Assembly: GCA_025350815.1 (NCBI GenBank)
Contig: JANXXE010000014.1
Span: 1 to 64,000, forward strand
Direction of reading: 5' to 3'
Source of the DNA: Myxococcales bacterium
GTDB taxonomy: Bacteria; Myxococcota_A; Polyangia; Fen-1088
Length of the DNA: 64,000 nucleotides
A program made the position numbers and the translations under genes. Under the pieces are notes generated by a model that worked only from the letters and a program-made list of their open reading frames with translations, did no database searches and was not told the origin of the DNA. Numbering within the stretch: the first letter of the stretch is position 1; each line of letters starts with the position of its first letter. Below are positions 51,978-62,182 of the stretch, piece by piece.

Positions 51978-52832
51978 TCAGATCGGGGCGACGACGCGCT
52001 GGCGCGATTCGCCGAGTCCTTCGATACCCAGTTCGACGACGTCGCCAGGGACCAGATACTGCGGCGTTGGCTTGGCAAAGGCGCCCACGCCCGGCGGCGT
52101 ACCCGTGCTGATGATGTCGCCCGGCAGCAGGGTCATGAACTGGCTGATGTAGCTGATGGCGGTCGGCACATCGAAGATCATGTCCGAGGTATTGCTCTTC
52201 TGTTTCATGACGCCGTTGACCTTCAACCACATGCCCAGATGCCCGCAGTCGACTTCGTCGGCGGTCGCCATGAAGGGCCCAAACGGCGCGAAGGTGTCGC
52301 AGCCCTTGCCCTTGTCCCACTGGCCGCCGCGTTCCAGCTGAAACTCGCGTTCGGAATAATCGTTGTGCAGGGCAAAACCCGCGACGTGCGCCAGGGCATC
52401 CGCCTTGCTGACATAACTGGCCTTCTTGCCGATGACCACCGCCAGCTCGACCTCCCAGTCGGTCTTCTTCGAGGCGCGCGGGATAATCAGGTCGTCATTC
52501 GGCCCGCAGTACGCCGTCGTCGCCTTCAGGAAGATGACGGGCTCTTTCGGCGGCGCGATGCCCTGTTCGGTGGCGTGCTCGTGGTAGTTGAGACCGACGC
52601 AGACGATCTTGCTGGGCCGGCAGACCGCCGGGCCCAGGCGCAGGCCTGAATCGATCTTCGGCGCGGACGCCCCCTGCTTCTGCAACCAGGCGCCGAGCCG
52701 CGCAAGACCGTCGCCGCCAAAGAAGGCCTCGTTGTAATCTTGTCCGAAACCCGAGACGTCGACACGAGCGCCGTCCTGCGTGATGACACCGGGCTTTTCC
52801 TCACCGGGGCGACCGAAACGAAAGAGCTTCAT
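51978..52832 (-). CDS. Fumarylacetoacetate hydrolase family protein
   Basis: KIVCVGLNYHEHATEQGIAPPKEPVIFLKATTAYCGPNDDLIIPRASKKTDWEVELAVVIGKKA...LLPGDIISTGTPPGVG. Confidence 0.95.
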   Translation of the reverse strand: MKLFRFGRPGEEKPGVITQDGARVDVSGFGQDYNEAFFGGDGLARLGAWLQKQGASAPKIDSGLRLGPAVCRPSKIVCVGLNYHEHATEQGIAPPKEPVIFLKATTAYCGPNDDLIIPRASKKTDWEVELAVVIGKKASYVSKADALAHVAGFALHNDYSEREFQLERGGQWDKGKGCDTFAPFGPFMATADEVDCGHLGMWLKVNGVMKQKSNTSDMIFDVPTAISYISQFMTLLPGDIISTGTPPGVGAFAKPTPQYLVPGDVVELGIEGLGESRQRVVAPI

Positions 52833-52905
52833 GCCCCTGGCTTATGTGAGCGACGCGGCCGAGTCAACAGCGGATCGCAACGCAGCCCCCGTGTTAGCGT
52901 TGGCC

Positions 52906-53946
52906 ATGCGCATCGGGATCATATTGGCGGTGCTGATCGCGCCTGCGACCGTGTCGGCGGCGATCGTGTGGCGGGGTGACTTTGAAACCGGCGACATCAA
53001 ACAGTGGACGAGTTTTTCGTTCCCCAACCACGCCACGGTGATTCAGATGCCGGTCCGCGCCGGCCGCTATGCCGGGCGAACGGAGGTACACAGCGAGGAC
53101 AGGTGGCCGAACGGGCTGCGGCGCGTGGAGGTGGTCTACAACCCGCCCAAAAATACCTTCCAGGATTCCGAGCGTTTCTACGGCTGGAGCATGATGCAGT
53201 CCCCGGACATGCCGCTGTCCCAGGCGCACAGCAACGCCATCGCGTACTGGGAATCGGACCCGCTGTACCAGGTGATCATGGATTTTAGCGTCGACAAGGA
53301 CAAGGTCGCGTTCCGCGCGTCGCTGAACAAGCCCGACGGCAAACCGGCCGGGACCGTGTTCCGCGGGGACTTCGGCCCGGGCCGCTGGCACGACTTCATC
53401 CTGCATGTGAAGTGGTCGCCCGACCCCAACGTGGGCCTTATCGAGTTGTGGTACGACGGCGCCAAGGTGGTGGACAAGCTGACGGTGCAGACCATGCACA
53501 ACGTAAACGGCATGATCTACCCCGCATTCTTCAAGATGGGCCTCATGCATGGGGATTTCGACGCCGACCCCGAAGCGCTGTTCATCGACAGCGCGATCGA
53601 CGCGACGACGTTCGCCGAGGCGAGCCCGGGCGTTTCCGACGGTGGGGTGCCGCCCATGGCCGACGCGGCAAGGGCGACGCCCGATGTCGCGCCGCCGAGG
53701 CTGGACGCCAACGTTCCGCTGGTTGACGCTGGCCCGGTGGTGGATGCAGCCGTGGACGCCAGCGCCGCGCGTGACGACAGTCCGACCCCGCCTGCCGCGG
53801 GCGCCCGAGGCAACGCCGGCTGCGGTTGCCGTGTCGGCCAGCGGTCGTCCGGACGTGGGGCCGCGGGACCTGGGACAGCGGGACTTGGGGCAGCGGGACT
53901 GCTGATACTGGCGCTGGCGATCGCACGCAGGCGACGGCGGCGCTGA
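52906..53946 (+). CDS. Heparin-lyase-like (polysaccharide lyase fold) secreted protein with MYXO-CTERM-like sorting tail
   Basis: MRIGIILAVLIAPATVSAAIVWRGDFETGDIKQW...GRWHDFILHVKWSPDPNVGLIELWYDGAKVVD; Asp/Ala-rich linker; C-terminus GNAGCGCRVGQ...GLLILALAIARRRRRR. Confidence 0.8.
   Translation: MRIGIILAVLIAPATVSAAIVWRGDFETGDIKQWTSFSFPNHATVIQMPVRAGRYAGRTEVHSEDRWPNGLRRVEVVYNPPKNTFQDSERFYGWSMMQSPDMPLSQAHSNAIAYWESDPLYQVIMDFSVDKDKVAFRASLNKPDGKPAGTVFRGDFGPGRWHDFILHVKWSPDPNVGLIELWYDGAKVVDKLTVQTMHNVNGMIYPAFFKMGLMHGDFDADPEALFIDSAIDATTFAEASPGVSDGGVPPMADAARATPDVAPPRLDANVPLVDAGPVVDAAVDASAARDDSPTPPAAGARGNAGCGCRVGQRSSGRGAAGPGTAGLGAAGLLILALAIARRRRRR
53863..53907 (+). repeat. 15-bp degenerate tandem repeat encoding the Gly/Ala-rich segment before the MYXO-CTERM TM
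   Basis: GCGGGACCTGGGACA / GCGGGACTTGGGGCA / GCGGGACTGCTGATA. Confidence 0.6.
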
Positions 53947-56489: not shown

Positions 56490-57281
56490 ATGCCGGCCAT
56501 GCGTCTGTCCTTGATCATTGCCGTTGCCATCTTCTGCGTCGCAGGCGTGCCATCGATTTCACACGCCGTGGATCCTTTCGAGGTTCAGGTCTACGAAGGC
56601 GACATCAACGATCCGGGCCAGGCGGGCCTGGAACTGCACACGAACTACACGGCATCGGGCCGCAAGGTGGCCGAGTACCCGGGCGAGGCGACCCCACACC
56701 GGTTGTTGCGCACCACAATCGAGCCGTCGTTTGCCCTGACGTCCTGGTGGGAGTTGGGCGCGTACCTGCAATTCGCCACGGCCACGAAAGATGTCGCCGA
56801 GCACTTCGGCGGCTTCAAGCTGCGCAGCAAGTTCATCGCGCCCCGTTCGGTCAGCGAAAGGCTGGGCGGCCTCGTTCTGGGCCTTAATATCGAAGTGGGC
56901 CGCGGCGCCGCCGCCTTCGGCGGAACGGACTGGGACACCGAGATTCGCCCCATCCTGGCCTATGCAACCAAGCGCTGGTTCTTCGCGCTGAACCCGATTT
57001 TGGGCTGGGCGCTGACCGGCGACACACACGCGGCGCCCGCGTTCGAGCCGGCCGGCAAGATCCGCTTCGACACGGGCAAGCGCGTCGGCATCGGCGTCGA
57101 ATACTTCGCGGGACTCGGACGCCTGAACGACGTCGGCCCGTTCCAACATCAGGAACACGTCGTCTACGTCGTCGGCGATCTGCTGGATGGGCCCGTCGAA
57201 CTGAACATCGGCGTGGGCCGCGGCCTGACCGACGCGACAGACGACTGGACCGTGAAGACGATCGTCGGCAAGACCTTCTGA
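56490..57281 (+). CDS. Secreted/outer-membrane protein of unknown function
   Basis: Signal peptide MRLSLIIAVAIFCVAGVPSISHAVDPFEVQVYEGDINDPGQAGLELHTNYTASG; beta-barrel-like strands. Confidence 0.7.
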   Translation: MPAMRLSLIIAVAIFCVAGVPSISHAVDPFEVQVYEGDINDPGQAGLELHTNYTASGRKVAEYPGEATPHRLLRTTIEPSFALTSWWELGAYLQFATATKDVAEHFGGFKLRSKFIAPRSVSERLGGLVLGLNIEVGRGAAAFGGTDWDTEIRPILAYATKRWFFALNPILGWALTGDTHAAPAFEPAGKIRFDTGKRVGIGVEYFAGLGRLNDVGPFQHQEHVVYVVGDLLDGPVELNIGVGRGLTDATDDWTVKTIVGKTF

Positions 57282-57282
57282 A

Positions 57283-59628
57283 CTACGGCTTCGCTGCGAC
57301 GCCGTCCCAATGCCAACCCGTGATTCCGAGCCCCGGGGCGTAGCCCGTCTTGTAGCTGGCCACCTTGCCCAGACCGTCAACCAACACGAAGGTGGGAAAG
57401 CCACTGACGCCGTAACCCAGGAAGGCCTTGCGGCTGTCGTCGAGCGCGACGACGTCGGGGAAGGGGTGGGCGAATTGTTTGAAGAAGGCGTCTACGATTT
57501 CGACCGGCTCGTCGGTGATGGCGATGACGGGCGTCTGGCGCTGACGGGCGAAGGCCATCACCTCGGGCAGCGAGGCCTTGCAGGGGCCACACCATGTGGC
57601 CCAGAACAGCAGTAGGTGGGGACCGGTGCCGACAAGGGTCGCGGGCAGCCTGCCCCGGTACGGCGTGACCTTCAACGCGGGCGCCGCGTCGCCTGCCTTC
57701 GGCGGACCACGCATCTCGGGCAGCACCATCGGGTAGGGCTTGGGTAGAATCGTGACAGTCTTCTTTTCCGTGCCGCGAACCAGCACCATCGGCCGCGGCA
57801 CCCCCACCGTCGACAAGAAAGTCCACGAGCGCACCTGATTGCGTTCCGTGAAGGGCGCATCCGGGGGGCCAAGCAGAATGTCGCCGGTCTCGATGCCCGC
57901 CGCCTCGGCGGCAGAGCCTGGCATCACGCCGACGACGAAGGTCGCTCCTTCGGCGTCACCGAGGGCCAGGGCCTTGCGCGGGCCAGGCGGCACCACGTCA
58001 AATTTGATACCAAGCCACGCCGGCAAAACCCGTTGCGCCAGGCGCATGTCGTCGTCAAACGCCGGAAACGGATCGCCAGCGACGGGCGAAACGACAGGCG
58101 TGGCTGCGGGTGACAGCGCGAAATCCTCGCAGCCGCGTAGCGCCTCGAAACCGGCGCGTTCGGCGGGCGTGCCGCGCGTGCGCAGGTAGGTGCGCCCCGC
58201 AATTTGATCAAGCAGGGCGCGCAGGCGCAGGACGACGGCAAGGCGAACCTCCATCCGGTACGCCACCGCCGCAGAGGTCGTGGCCTTGTCGTGCAGGGTG
58301 CGCAGACGCGTCCAGGTTTCGCTGTTGCCCTGACTGAACTTGCCAAGGTCGGCCAACAACTTTGGCGACATCAGGCGGGCCTCGGAGGCCGGCAACGACT
58401 GAAGCGCCGTCGGCGTCAGGCGATCCTTCCAGTCGGACCGCGCGGCCACAAAGCGCGAAAGCCCGGCGCGGTTGAGATCGCCCAGGGCGTCCTTCCAGGC
58501 CTGAGCGTGTGTCTTCAGGGTGCCCGTCACGTCGGGCAGTCGTTTGGTCTGATCGGCAAGTTCAGCCGCCGAGCGCGGACCAAAAAGACCGAAGGCGCGA
58601 CCGATGCGATCCAGCAAACGCAGTTCGGGCTCCCACGCGGCGCGATCCCGCCAGGCTTCGCCCAGCAGTTCGTCGACCAGCTGGTCCACCGGAATTTTGC
58701 GTGTCTTGGCGACGGCGGCCAGCAGATCGCCCAAATATTTATCGGAGGTTCGCAGCGGCACGTCAGGCGTGGCATCCAGCGCCAGCGTCTCGTCGTGGGA
58801 CGCCGCAAAACGGCGCGACGCCGCCAGCGCGCGCAGAAACACGAATGAATGACCGACGTTGTCGCGTCCCAGATTTTCGGCGTAGCAGCCGTAGGCGGGG
58901 CGATCGGCGGTCGACGAAAAGTATCCACAGAACCCACCGTCCGGCTGGCCGCCCCGGCCGGCGCGCCGGGACAGCAACTGCGCGAAGCCGCCCGAGTAGC
59001 ACTGGGACATGAGGCTGACGACGCGCACTCCGCGGTCCAGGGTCGCAAGCAAGGTCCCCAGTTCCCCGACGGTGAGCGATTCGTCCTTGCCCCACAAGGT
59101 GATCTGGTTGTCGTCCTGGGGATGTTCGCCCTTGCGTCCGTGATCCGTCACGTACAGCAACAGCGTGTCGCCCGGATGCAGCCGCGTGCGCGCCTGGGCA
59201 AACCAGGCACCGATCGACGACTTGGTCGCGGGCTTCAGGGTCAGACCCTCGACGGCGGAATTCTGGTAGGTCACCGGGATTTGCAACGTCTGACCGACAG
59301 GCGTGCCGTCCAGCAGCCAGAACGACGCTTCGCGCTCGCGATCACGTACGGCCAGATCCTGGGCGGGGTCGGCGCCGTCGCCGCTGAATACCGAGATCCG
59401 ATCGTGCGCGATGCCCGCCCCGGTCAATAGCTTGGCCAACTCGCGCACGTGCAACAGGTGGGACTGATAGTTGATGGCGGGCGAGCCACCACCATTGATC
59501 ATCAGAACATGAACGTGCGCCGGCGGCAGCGGCGGCGCCGACGATGAACCGTCGACCTTGGCGAACAAAACGCCCGGTCGCGCAAAAATTGAGACCAGCA
59601 GTGACAGCAAGACAAGCAGGGGACGCAC
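57283..59628 (-). CDS. Secreted clan-CD (caspase/legumain-like) cysteine protease fused to PDZ and TlpA-like thioredoxin domains
   Basis: Signal peptide MRPLLVLLSLLVSIFARPGVLFA; His motif LLLYVTDHGRKG (His codon 59140-59142); Cys motif VVSLMSQCYSGGF (Cys codon 58999-59001); PDZ-like VGVMPGSAAEAAGIETGDILLGPPDAPFTERNQVRSW; thioredoxin HLLLFWATWCGPCKASLPEVMAFARQ (57578-57595). Confidence 0.8.
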   Translation of the reverse strand: MRPLLVLLSLLVSIFARPGVLFAKVDGSSSAPPLPPAHVHVLMINGGGSPAINYQSHLLHVRELAKLLTGAGIAHDRISVFSGDGADPAQDLAVRDREREASFWLLDGTPVGQTLQIPVTYQNSAVEGLTLKPATKSSIGAWFAQARTRLHPGDTLLLYVTDHGRKGEHPQDDNQITLWGKDESLTVGELGTLLATLDRGVRVVSLMSQCYSGGFAQLLSRRAGRGGQPDGGFCGYFSSTADRPAYGCYAENLGRDNVGHSFVFLRALAASRRFAASHDETLALDATPDVPLRTSDKYLGDLLAAVAKTRKIPVDQLVDELLGEAWRDRAAWEPELRLLDRIGRAFGLFGPRSAAELADQTKRLPDVTGTLKTHAQAWKDALGDLNRAGLSRFVAARSDWKDRLTPTALQSLPASEARLMSPKLLADLGKFSQGNSETWTRLRTLHDKATTSAAVAYRMEVRLAVVLRLRALLDQIAGRTYLRTRGTPAERAGFEALRGCEDFALSPAATPVVSPVAGDPFPAFDDDMRLAQRVLPAWLGIKFDVVPPGPRKALALGDAEGATFVVGVMPGSAAEAAGIETGDILLGPPDAPFTERNQVRSWTFLSTVGVPRPMVLVRGTEKKTVTILPKPYPMVLPEMRGPPKAGDAAPALKVTPYRGRLPATLVGTGPHLLLFWATWCGPCKASLPEVMAFARQRQTPVIAITDEPVEIVDAFFKQFAHPFPDVVALDDSRKAFLGYGVSGFPTFVLVDGLGKVASYKTGYAPGLGITGWHWDGVAAKP

Positions 59629-59719: not shown

Positions 59720-62182
59720 GTGCGATATCTCCGTCACTTCATGCAGCAGACTGGCCCGTCACCGCCCGGGCGCCCGCGGCGCCTGCTGAACGCCGCATTA
59801 CTGATCCTCGCAGCGGCACTGGCCTTCCGGGCCGCGCGCGCCAAGGCGGGGTACTGGAATACTGATGACGCGGCCATCACCTATGTGCACGCGTTTGCCC
59901 TGGCCGATCACGGCTCGGCGTCGGCCTATGCGGAAGGGCCCAGCGTCGAGGGCTACAGCAACCCACTGCTTTACGGTCTTGTCGCAGCCCTGCGATTCGT
60001 CCATCTCTTCGATCCGATCAGGACCCACCTCGTTGTCGAAGCAGCGCTATTCGGACTGGCGGTCTTGTGCGTCTTCCTGACCGTGGCGGCGCGGGCCGGA
60101 CAAGGGGCGGCAGGTCTCGCTGCGGCTGCGTTTGTGCTGTCCGAGTTGATGACACCCGCAACCTGGGCCTGGTACGGCTCGGGCCTCGAGAACGCGCTGC
60201 TGACGGCGGGGCTGGCCGCGTTGCTTTGGCGGGCCGACGTGATCCTACGAAACGGCGCCCGTCCCCTGGTGGATGGTTGTCTGGCGTTGGCAGTGGCGCT
60301 GATCCGTCCAGAAGCGGTCTTGTACGCGGCAGCGTTCCATATCTTTCTGTTGGCGACAGTGCTGCTGCGTGGGCGTCGTTCCCAGGCAGGCCACCTCAGA
60401 GGAATCTTCGGCGCGATGTTGGTCTCCTTGCTTCTGGCGGCGACCTTGCTGGCACTGCGATACGCTGTCTACCGAGATCTTCTTCCGAATACCTACTACG
60501 CCAAGATCACCGGCACGGGCTTCATGGCTCACCTGCGCCCGTATGTTTTGCCTCTGATGGGCGGCTACCACTACACCTATGCCTTTGCGGCGTCGACCGT
60601 GGTTCTGTTGCTGCTGCCGGCCTGGCGCGCGCCCGGTTTTCTGCTGTTGTTGCTATGGCTGGGCAGCACCCTGTTGCCGGGTTTCAAGGGTTCCGACTGG
60701 ATGGGCGAGCACCGTTTCGCCACGGCCCTGTTCGCGACCGGCCACATCGCCTTCGGACTTCTGGTGGGCGCCTGCTACTCGTCGGGCGGCACGGCCCACG
60801 CGCGACGGGCGCAGCTGTCAGCCGGCGCGTTGGTCGTCGCCGCGGCCGTCTTGCTGCATCTGCGAGGCAACCCGATCCTGTCGCCGCCCCCCTTGCATCC
60901 GATCACCATCGGCGAAATTGCGTACGAACAAGGCGCCCGCCGCATTGATCACCAACGCCGCCTGGGACTGATAAACCCGACGGTGATTCTGCCAGACGCT
61001 GGCGGCAGTCAGCTTGTCGGTGGCTTTCGGATGCTCGACTCGGGCCGCTTGACGGACTACCAACTGGCGCACCTATGGGGAACGCGCCCGCGCCTGCCCG
61101 AGATCAACCAGTACGAACACCAGGAACAGCGGGCTGACCTGGTAGACGGCAACGCGATCGCGTTCTGGTCCTTCGACCTGGCCCAAATCGGTTGGCATTT
61201 CCTCCGCAACCCGGACCTGAGGATGCTGCCCCGACGCGAACTGGTCGAGGTCGCCGACCTTCCCGCCGGCCTCACCCCCGTCATCGATCAGCCGGACTGT
61301 CGCATTTATGTGTCCGAATCCACCGTCTGGACAGCGGCCCCGTCCGGACTTGTGCGGGTCGAAGTGCTGGTGCAGCGGGCGTCCGCGGTGGGCATCCGGA
61401 ATATTCGGGCCACGGCCCGCCTCGGCGACCACGATACCGACACCGCCCGCCTGGTGCCGTACGGCGACGATCTGGGCCCGGGCATCGAACGACGCGCATT
61501 CTTGCTGGGCGCGCCCGCCGCCGCCGGTCGCTACGACGTCACATTAACTGTGCAACTGCCGGACGGGACGACGCCCCAAACAGTGGCAATCGGTGTCGTC
61601 GAGGTTCTGGCCGATCCGCAGCGACGGGCAGAAGCCATCCGCCAGCGGCTGACACAACCCGGCGTCGACGCCCGCCAGCAAGCGCGCCTTTTGGCGACGT
61701 TCCGTGAGCAGTCCATCGAACGTTTGCGCCACCGGGACTGGGTGGCCCAGGCCGACGGCCTGCACCTGGCCAGCCTGAAACGCAGCGCCGAACAGTCCGT
61801 CTTCCTTGCGCGTCTGACGTGGGACGCGCGCATGGCGTCGCAGCAGGATGTGCCCCACGAACTGGATTCCCTGTCCGCGACTGTCATCGACGCCGTTTTG
61901 CAGGACGCCGGGTGTGAGAAACGCGCGCCTGCGGACACCATACTGTGCCTGGGCCAGACGGTAGACTGGCTGCGCGGCCTCGGCTACTTCGGTGTGGCAG
62001 ACCGTCTTGATGTCCGACAACAGTCTGCTGCGGTCTTTGCGCGCCTGGACGGCGCCGATCTTCCCGTCCGCTACCGCGCGCTGGTCGGACTGACGCTGCT
62101 TTGGCCCGCGGATATGACCCGGCAGAAGGAACTGCTGGCGCTGCGCGAACAATTGTCGCCGCTGCCTGTTCTGCGCCCGTAA
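59720..62182 (+). CDS. GT-C fold integral membrane glycosyltransferase-like protein
   Basis: NTDDAAITYVHAFALADHGSASAYAEGPSVEGYSNPLLYGL, LLPNTYYAKITG, multiple TM helices followed by a soluble C-terminal domain; resembles arabinofuranosyltransferase-type GT-C proteins. Confidence 0.7.
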   Translation: MRYLRHFMQQTGPSPPGRPRRLLNAALLILAAALAFRAARAKAGYWNTDDAAITYVHAFALADHGSASAYAEGPSVEGYSNPLLYGLVAALRFVHLFDPIRTHLVVEAALFGLAVLCVFLTVAARAGQGAAGLAAAAFVLSELMTPATWAWYGSGLENALLTAGLAALLWRADVILRNGARPLVDGCLALAVALIRPEAVLYAAAFHIFLLATVLLRGRRSQAGHLRGIFGAMLVSLLLAATLLALRYAVYRDLLPNTYYAKITGTGFMAHLRPYVLPLMGGYHYTYAFAASTVVLLLLPAWRAPGFLLLLLWLGSTLLPGFKGSDWMGEHRFATALFATGHIAFGLLVGACYSSGGTAHARRAQLSAGALVVAAAVLLHLRGNPILSPPPLHPITIGEIAYEQGARRIDHQRRLGLINPTVILPDAGGSQLVGGFRMLDSGRLTDYQLAHLWGTRPRLPEINQYEHQEQRADLVDGNAIAFWSFDLAQIGWHFLRNPDLRMLPRRELVEVADLPAGLTPVIDQPDCRIYVSESTVWTAAPSGLVRVEVLVQRASAVGIRNIRATARLGDHDTDTARLVPYGDDLGPGIERRAFLLGAPAAAGRYDVTLTVQLPDGTTPQTVAIGVVEVLADPQRRAEAIRQRLTQPGVDARQQARLLATFREQSIERLRHRDWVAQADGLHLASLKRSAEQSVFLARLTWDARMASQQDVPHELDSLSATVIDAVLQDAGCEKRAPADTILCLGQTVDWLRGLGYFGVADRLDVRQQSAAVFARLDGADLPVRYRALVGLTLLWPADMTRQKELLALREQLSPLPVLRP

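Follow-up and report, generated by a model that had tools for sequence, protein, structure and literature searches.

We report a gene from a Myxococcales bacterium whose product joins a cysteine peptidase core of clan CD type, a PDZ domain, and a TlpA-like thioredoxin domain in one predicted exported polypeptide. The fusion is no one-off, as about 80 homologues were found in Myxococcota. The protein is quite possibly an envelope protease that both reduces and cuts, with a clan CD peptidase, a PDZ domain for binding, and a thioredoxin domain that would reduce substrate disulfides. More tentatively, the homologues may make up an undescribed family of envelope proteases with a caspase/legumain fold that combines reduction and proteolysis in one chain, the PDZ and thioredoxin domains being split in some lineages between paralogues that possibly cooperate.

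The gene and its surroundings

The gene lies in the window, by which we mean the whole 64,000-nucleotide stretch of DNA analyzed. Its features, all on the minus strand, are as follows.

57283..59628, minus strand: whole open reading frame, 781 amino acids plus stop, running from a GTG at 59628 to a stop codon that ends at 57283
59560..59628, minus strand: predicted signal peptide, residues 1 to 23 (VRPLLVLLSLLVSIFARPGVLFA), read by eye from the translation
58729..59520, minus strand: clan-CD-type protease domain, residues 37 to 300 (Pfam Peptidase_C13, PDB 3bij profile, and, weakly, Foldseek)
59140..59142, minus strand: putative catalytic His163 (VTDHG), in 39/40 TDHG-clade and 34/34 core-clade members
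58999..59001, minus strand: putative catalytic Cys210 (SQCYSGG), in 74/74 members
58927..58929, minus strand: invariant noncatalytic Cys234 (CGYF), in 74/74 members
58885..58887, minus strand: invariant noncatalytic Cys248 (YGCY), in 74/74 members
58129..58728, minus strand: helical region, residues 301 to 500, in every full-length core homologue
58129..58131, minus strand: invariant Cys500 of the CE motif that ends the helical region, in 70/70 members with the position aligned
57727..58029, minus strand: PDZ domain, residues 534 to 634 (Pfam PDZ_6, DegP/DegQ profile, and our own HMM at 123 bits)
57334..57696, minus strand: TlpA/ResA-like thioredoxin domain, residues 645 to 765 (Pfam Redoxin/Thioredoxin and PDB 4nmu)
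57580..57591, minus strand: thioredoxin CxxC, C680-G-P-C683 (WCGPC), with CxxC in 27/28 thioredoxin-bearing relatives

An in-frame stop immediately precedes the GTG start, and translation of the same bases on the plus strand meets nine stops. An earlier note on this DNA had given the coordinates of the gene correctly but not its strand, and its positions for the putative catalytic His163 (59140-59142) and Cys210 (58999-59001) were confirmed. The signal peptide, protease, PDZ, and thioredoxin domains that it named are likewise supported by conservation across the family. A frameshift or assembly artifact was ruled out by the single open frame and by the identical architecture in the complete genome of Minicystis rosea (L009), where the full set of domains follows a lipobox.

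The protease-PDZ-thioredoxin gene stands alone in the window. A gap of 91 bp separates it from the divergent gene upstream, at 59720, and the downstream gene, which ends at 57281, is convergent with it. Across about 27 family loci we found no recurring neighbor gene except for a few pairs, partly from sister species. Since the neighbors are not conserved, they provide neither a substrate hint nor an operon partner for the family. The divergent neighbor (59720-62182, plus strand) encodes an 820-amino-acid multispan membrane protein with weak matches only (DUF2339 and an LA3751-type putative glycosyltransferase); it may be a membrane glycosyltransferase. Elsewhere in the window, 52780-53946 (plus strand) encodes an exported protein that contains a PF14099 (polysaccharide lyase) domain and whose C terminus combines a Gly/Ala-rich stretch, a hydrophobic segment, and RRRRR and resembles a surface-sorting tail.

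The protease core

Of the 40 TDHG-clade members, 39 retain the TDHG motif and all 40 retain the SxC[YFH]xG motif, each after a hydrophobic strand. This family-wide conservation of the His and Cys motifs rules out a chance motif match. The window protein scores 17.1 to 18.6 bits against Pfam Peptidase_C13, below the cutoff of 22.8. The same model is matched by 27 of 48 diverse core members (E ≤ 0.1; best, 5.5e-10), and one relative, L046, passes the cutoff (24.8 versus 22.8 bits). The PDZ domain of the window protein behaves similarly, scoring 24.4 bits against PDZ_6, just under the cutoff of 27, and PDZ_2 is above the Pfam cutoff in L009, L046, and L088. Because the relatives match, we consider both subthreshold calls in the window protein secured.

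We searched a profile of the 48 diverse cores against the PDB and recovered the caspase-like protein GSU0716 (3bij; 2.5e-6) in an alignment that matches up the HG and C-SG motifs; metacaspase-4 followed at 0.026 and legumain at 1.1. The structure prediction that the earlier note had proposed gave AlphaFold models of low confidence, with a mean pLDDT of 39 for the full-length protein (from two sequences) and 44 for the isolated protease domain (from one sequence). Foldseek searches with the latter nevertheless returned caspase-fold proteins as the best matches, with 3bij at the top and metacaspases, MALT1, and caspases dominating, all at E ≥ 0.02 and hence supportive rather than conclusive. Based on the profile, Pfam, and Foldseek measures, we conclude that the core probably belongs to clan CD, between C13 and C14. 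Its sequence suggests a likeness to C13-type peptidases, placed outside PF01650 by Pfam's own threshold.

The region that follows the protease domain had been described in the earlier note as a helical spacer, a description that we revise. Core-only proteins end within about 4 to 14 residues of the CE motif of this region, and its retention in the core-only clade indicates that it is integral to a protease module of about 465 residues, which occurs alone in the sister clade and ends in the invariant Cys-Glu. By analogy with legumain, in which a regulatory prodomain comes after the protease domain, the helical region is perhaps a regulatory or stabilizing domain.

Cysteines of the core average about 4.0 in every architecture class. 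C210, C234, C248, and C500 are invariant wherever they are aligned, and no other cysteine in the core is conserved. The mature window protein has six cysteines in total, namely these four and the CxxC pair of the tail. The identical four are present in cores with or without an attached thioredoxin domain, the core-only clade included.

The PDZ and thioredoxin tail

Against the window protein, both thioredoxin-fold models exceed their Pfam cutoffs (Redoxin, 34.4 bits versus 26.6; Thioredoxin, 31.3 versus 23.5), and in the PDB the tail matches ResA/TlpA/DsbE proteins (ResA 4nmu, 1.9e-10). A whole-protein profile built with relatives (A1) matched the PDZ domains of DegP/DegQ at 9e-17. In DegP, an envelope protease, the established role of the PDZ domain is substrate binding, and by analogy it is plausible that the PDZ domain here recruits substrates as well.

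Two relatives have lost active-site residues in one module. In L046 (1171-3687, plus strand), the architecture is complete and the protease dyad is intact, and both CxxC cysteines are gone (WSGKG). In L088 (3997-6411, minus strand), the catalytic HG is changed to QG and the Cys, PDZ domain, and thioredoxin CxxC are kept, so that L088 is probably a pseudo-protease whose redox tail still works.

Reading by eye, we found a signal peptide, an anchor, or a lipobox (such as LAGC in Minicystis) at the N termini of relatives. In the f43 members L051 to L053 and L056, no obvious signal peptide of the classical kind is present, so an envelope location may fail for part of the family. A DsbD_TM protein occurs in 16/16 genomes examined, including that of the window, and DsbD likewise accompanies the family in genomes that yielded thioredoxin-less copies only. 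Its presence makes an electron supply possible but does not discriminate between explanations.

Distribution and phylogeny

Broad scans covered Myxococcota, and beyond the phylum, coverage consisted of a narrow scan of named genomes for six peptides taken exactly from the window protein. Strong core matches were present in roughly 65 of 379 genomes drawn from the phylum, and core homologues are also plentiful in the class to which Minicystis belongs. Identical hit coordinates showed that the genomes of the window's family and class are among those of the Minicystis rosea class, and the placement of the window's genome was read from this membership. We detected no core homologue in scans of viral contigs and of plasmids. 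The search for the fused architecture in relatives, also proposed in the earlier note, was productive. In addition to Minicystis rosea, the full set occurs in G002, a member of the window's family, in which G010 and G013 to G017 have the PDZ domain only. Three genomes of the same family (G004, G006, and G009) each carry one core-plus-PDZ copy and one core-plus-thioredoxin copy. The window's own genome has a second copy (L002; G000:C41:22868-24853) that is 47% identical and consists of core and thioredoxin without PDZ; its thioredoxin motif is WCRPC, and a short Pro/Ala-rich linker takes the place of the PDZ domain.

A maximum-likelihood tree of 74 cores, rooted at the midpoint only, resolved two fully supported clades, one of 34 core-only proteins, whose motifs are mostly of the [AG]HG/TTC type, and one of 40 TDHG/SQC proteins. 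The PDZ and thioredoxin tails are confined to the TDHG/SQC clade, in which more members have the full set than any other combination. Core-only proteins (e.g., L022, L024, L065 to L068, and L086 to L112), which are common in the class of Minicystis, have an [AG]HG motif, TTCFSGGF, and the invariant CE at the end, and among Pfam models they give weak Peptidase_C13 matches only.

The simplest reading, with polarity inferred from the midpoint-rooted tree, is that the ancestor had the full set, that three or more lineages then lost thioredoxin (a nine-member clade of the window's family, L043, and L057), and that PDZ was lost once, in four proteins of the window's family. We found no thioredoxin remnant by tblastn in the flanks of the PDZ-only loci, which rules out an ORF-calling artifact as the source of thioredoxin loss. 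An apparent PDZ loss in L060, L063, and L064, indicated by our own HMM, was rejected based on diverged PDZ domains found with Pfam in L060 and L064 and, by analogy, for L063. Stand-alone exported PDZ-TlpA proteins (L023 and L025), which align with the tail over both domains, occur in the same class, suggesting that the core may have acquired both tail domains together, as a preassembled unit.

Proposed function and alternatives

In the arrangement that we favor, an exported cysteine peptidase of caspase/legumain fold (clan CD) would cut the substrate, the C-terminal PDZ domain would hold substrate tails, the TlpA-like thioredoxin would reduce disulfides of the bound substrate and so enable cleavage by the peptidase, and a membrane reductase of DsbD/CcdA type would recharge the thioredoxin. 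This arrangement builds on the domains, their intact active-site residues, their retention across the family, and the DsbD-family protein in the genome; proteolysis, envelope location, substrate binding by PDZ, electron supply, and the disulfide target are its postulated parts. Supporting it, the dyad is present in all members but one and CxxC in all but one of the thioredoxin-bearing relatives, the thioredoxin is nearest to reductases of the ResA/DsbE type and the PDZ domain to PDZ1 of DegP/DegQ, stand-alone PDZ-TlpA would be a reductase module already equipped to bind substrates, the N termini read as signal peptides, lipoboxes, or anchors, and a DsbD_TM protein accompanies the family in every genome examined. 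The three or more lineages that lack thioredoxin, together with the CxxC-less L046, imply that reduction is not essential everywhere.

The thioredoxin might instead act in cis, either by keeping C210 reduced, as the earlier note had suggested, or by switching a disulfide among C210, C234, C248, and C500 according to the redox state of the envelope. Exactly four cysteines of the core are invariant, an odd number of which, three, are noncatalytic, and the fusion would hold the CxxC permanently near them in a mature protein with just six cysteines. However, thioredoxin-less members and the whole core-only clade keep these four cysteines and the dyad, so thioredoxin is not required for their upkeep and its client more likely lies outside the core. 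L088, which bears a thioredoxin domain, has also lost its catalytic His and yet retains CxxC. We therefore regard action in cis as unlikely, and of the two redox roles raised in the earlier note, reduction of substrate disulfides appears to be the better one, judging from the sequences of the family. The repeated loss of modules and the division of PDZ and thioredoxin between two copies in G004, G006, and G009 could also mean that both domains are interchangeable tethering or targeting modules (e.g., for a protein C terminus or a partner), with redox chemistry secondary. Retention of CxxC in nearly all of the diverged copies would be unexpected if redox chemistry were irrelevant, and we consider this explanation improbable. 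Matches to caspase- and metacaspase-like folds, and a helical region placed after the protease like the regulatory prodomain of legumain, would fit a processing or cell death enzyme, similar to orthocaspases, that is activated by cleavage or release of an inhibitory helical region. Such a role seems very improbable, given the absence of a recurring neighbor gene as a possible partner, the weak match of the core profile to metacaspase-4, and predicted export, which is unusual for orthocaspases.

In an oxidizing envelope, substrate disulfides often block proteolysis. If reduction and cutting by one chain are real, they would be a new answer to this problem, parallel to DegP and with a cysteine nucleophile. 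The family is also a natural experiment, as the core occurs with both tails, with either one, and with none, as well as in CxxC-less (L046) and His-less (L088) forms, and these natural variants allow the contribution of each module to be compared.

Comparison with known systems

The earlier note did not recall this three-part architecture, and we found no paper describing a caspase/legumain-type protease with PDZ and thioredoxin domains in the open-licence literature, an absence that is no proof of novelty. The nearest paper surveys conflict systems with caspases in multicellular bacteria and makes no mention of thioredoxin (PMC7159879).

The best Pfam match of the core is peptidase family C13 (legumain/GPI transamidase, PF01650), with which it shares a hydrophobic strand followed by TDHG and a hydrophobic strand followed by xxCxSG. 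The TDHG sequence of legumain is identical to that of the window core. Unlike C13 peptidases, the core falls below the family threshold (18.6 versus 22.8 bits, with legumain itself at E 1.1), its helical region differs and carries the invariant CE, and the protein is bacterial and has PDZ and thioredoxin tails. GSU0716 (3bij) and the metacaspases (C14-like) include the nearest solved structure by profile and the top Foldseek match, both 3bij, but only about 100 residues align, and those matches give no indication of a helical CE region, PDZ, or thioredoxin. DegP and DegQ are likewise exported proteases with PDZ domains, and the PDZ domain here is of the DegP PDZ1 type; their trypsin-like Ser peptidase, however, is unrelated to the caspase-like Cys core, and they have no thioredoxin. 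TlpA, ResA, and DsbE share the thioredoxin fold with WCxPC, and the stand-alone PDZ-TlpA proteins can be aligned over both domains. Whereas all of these lack a protease, here the same fold forms the tail of one.
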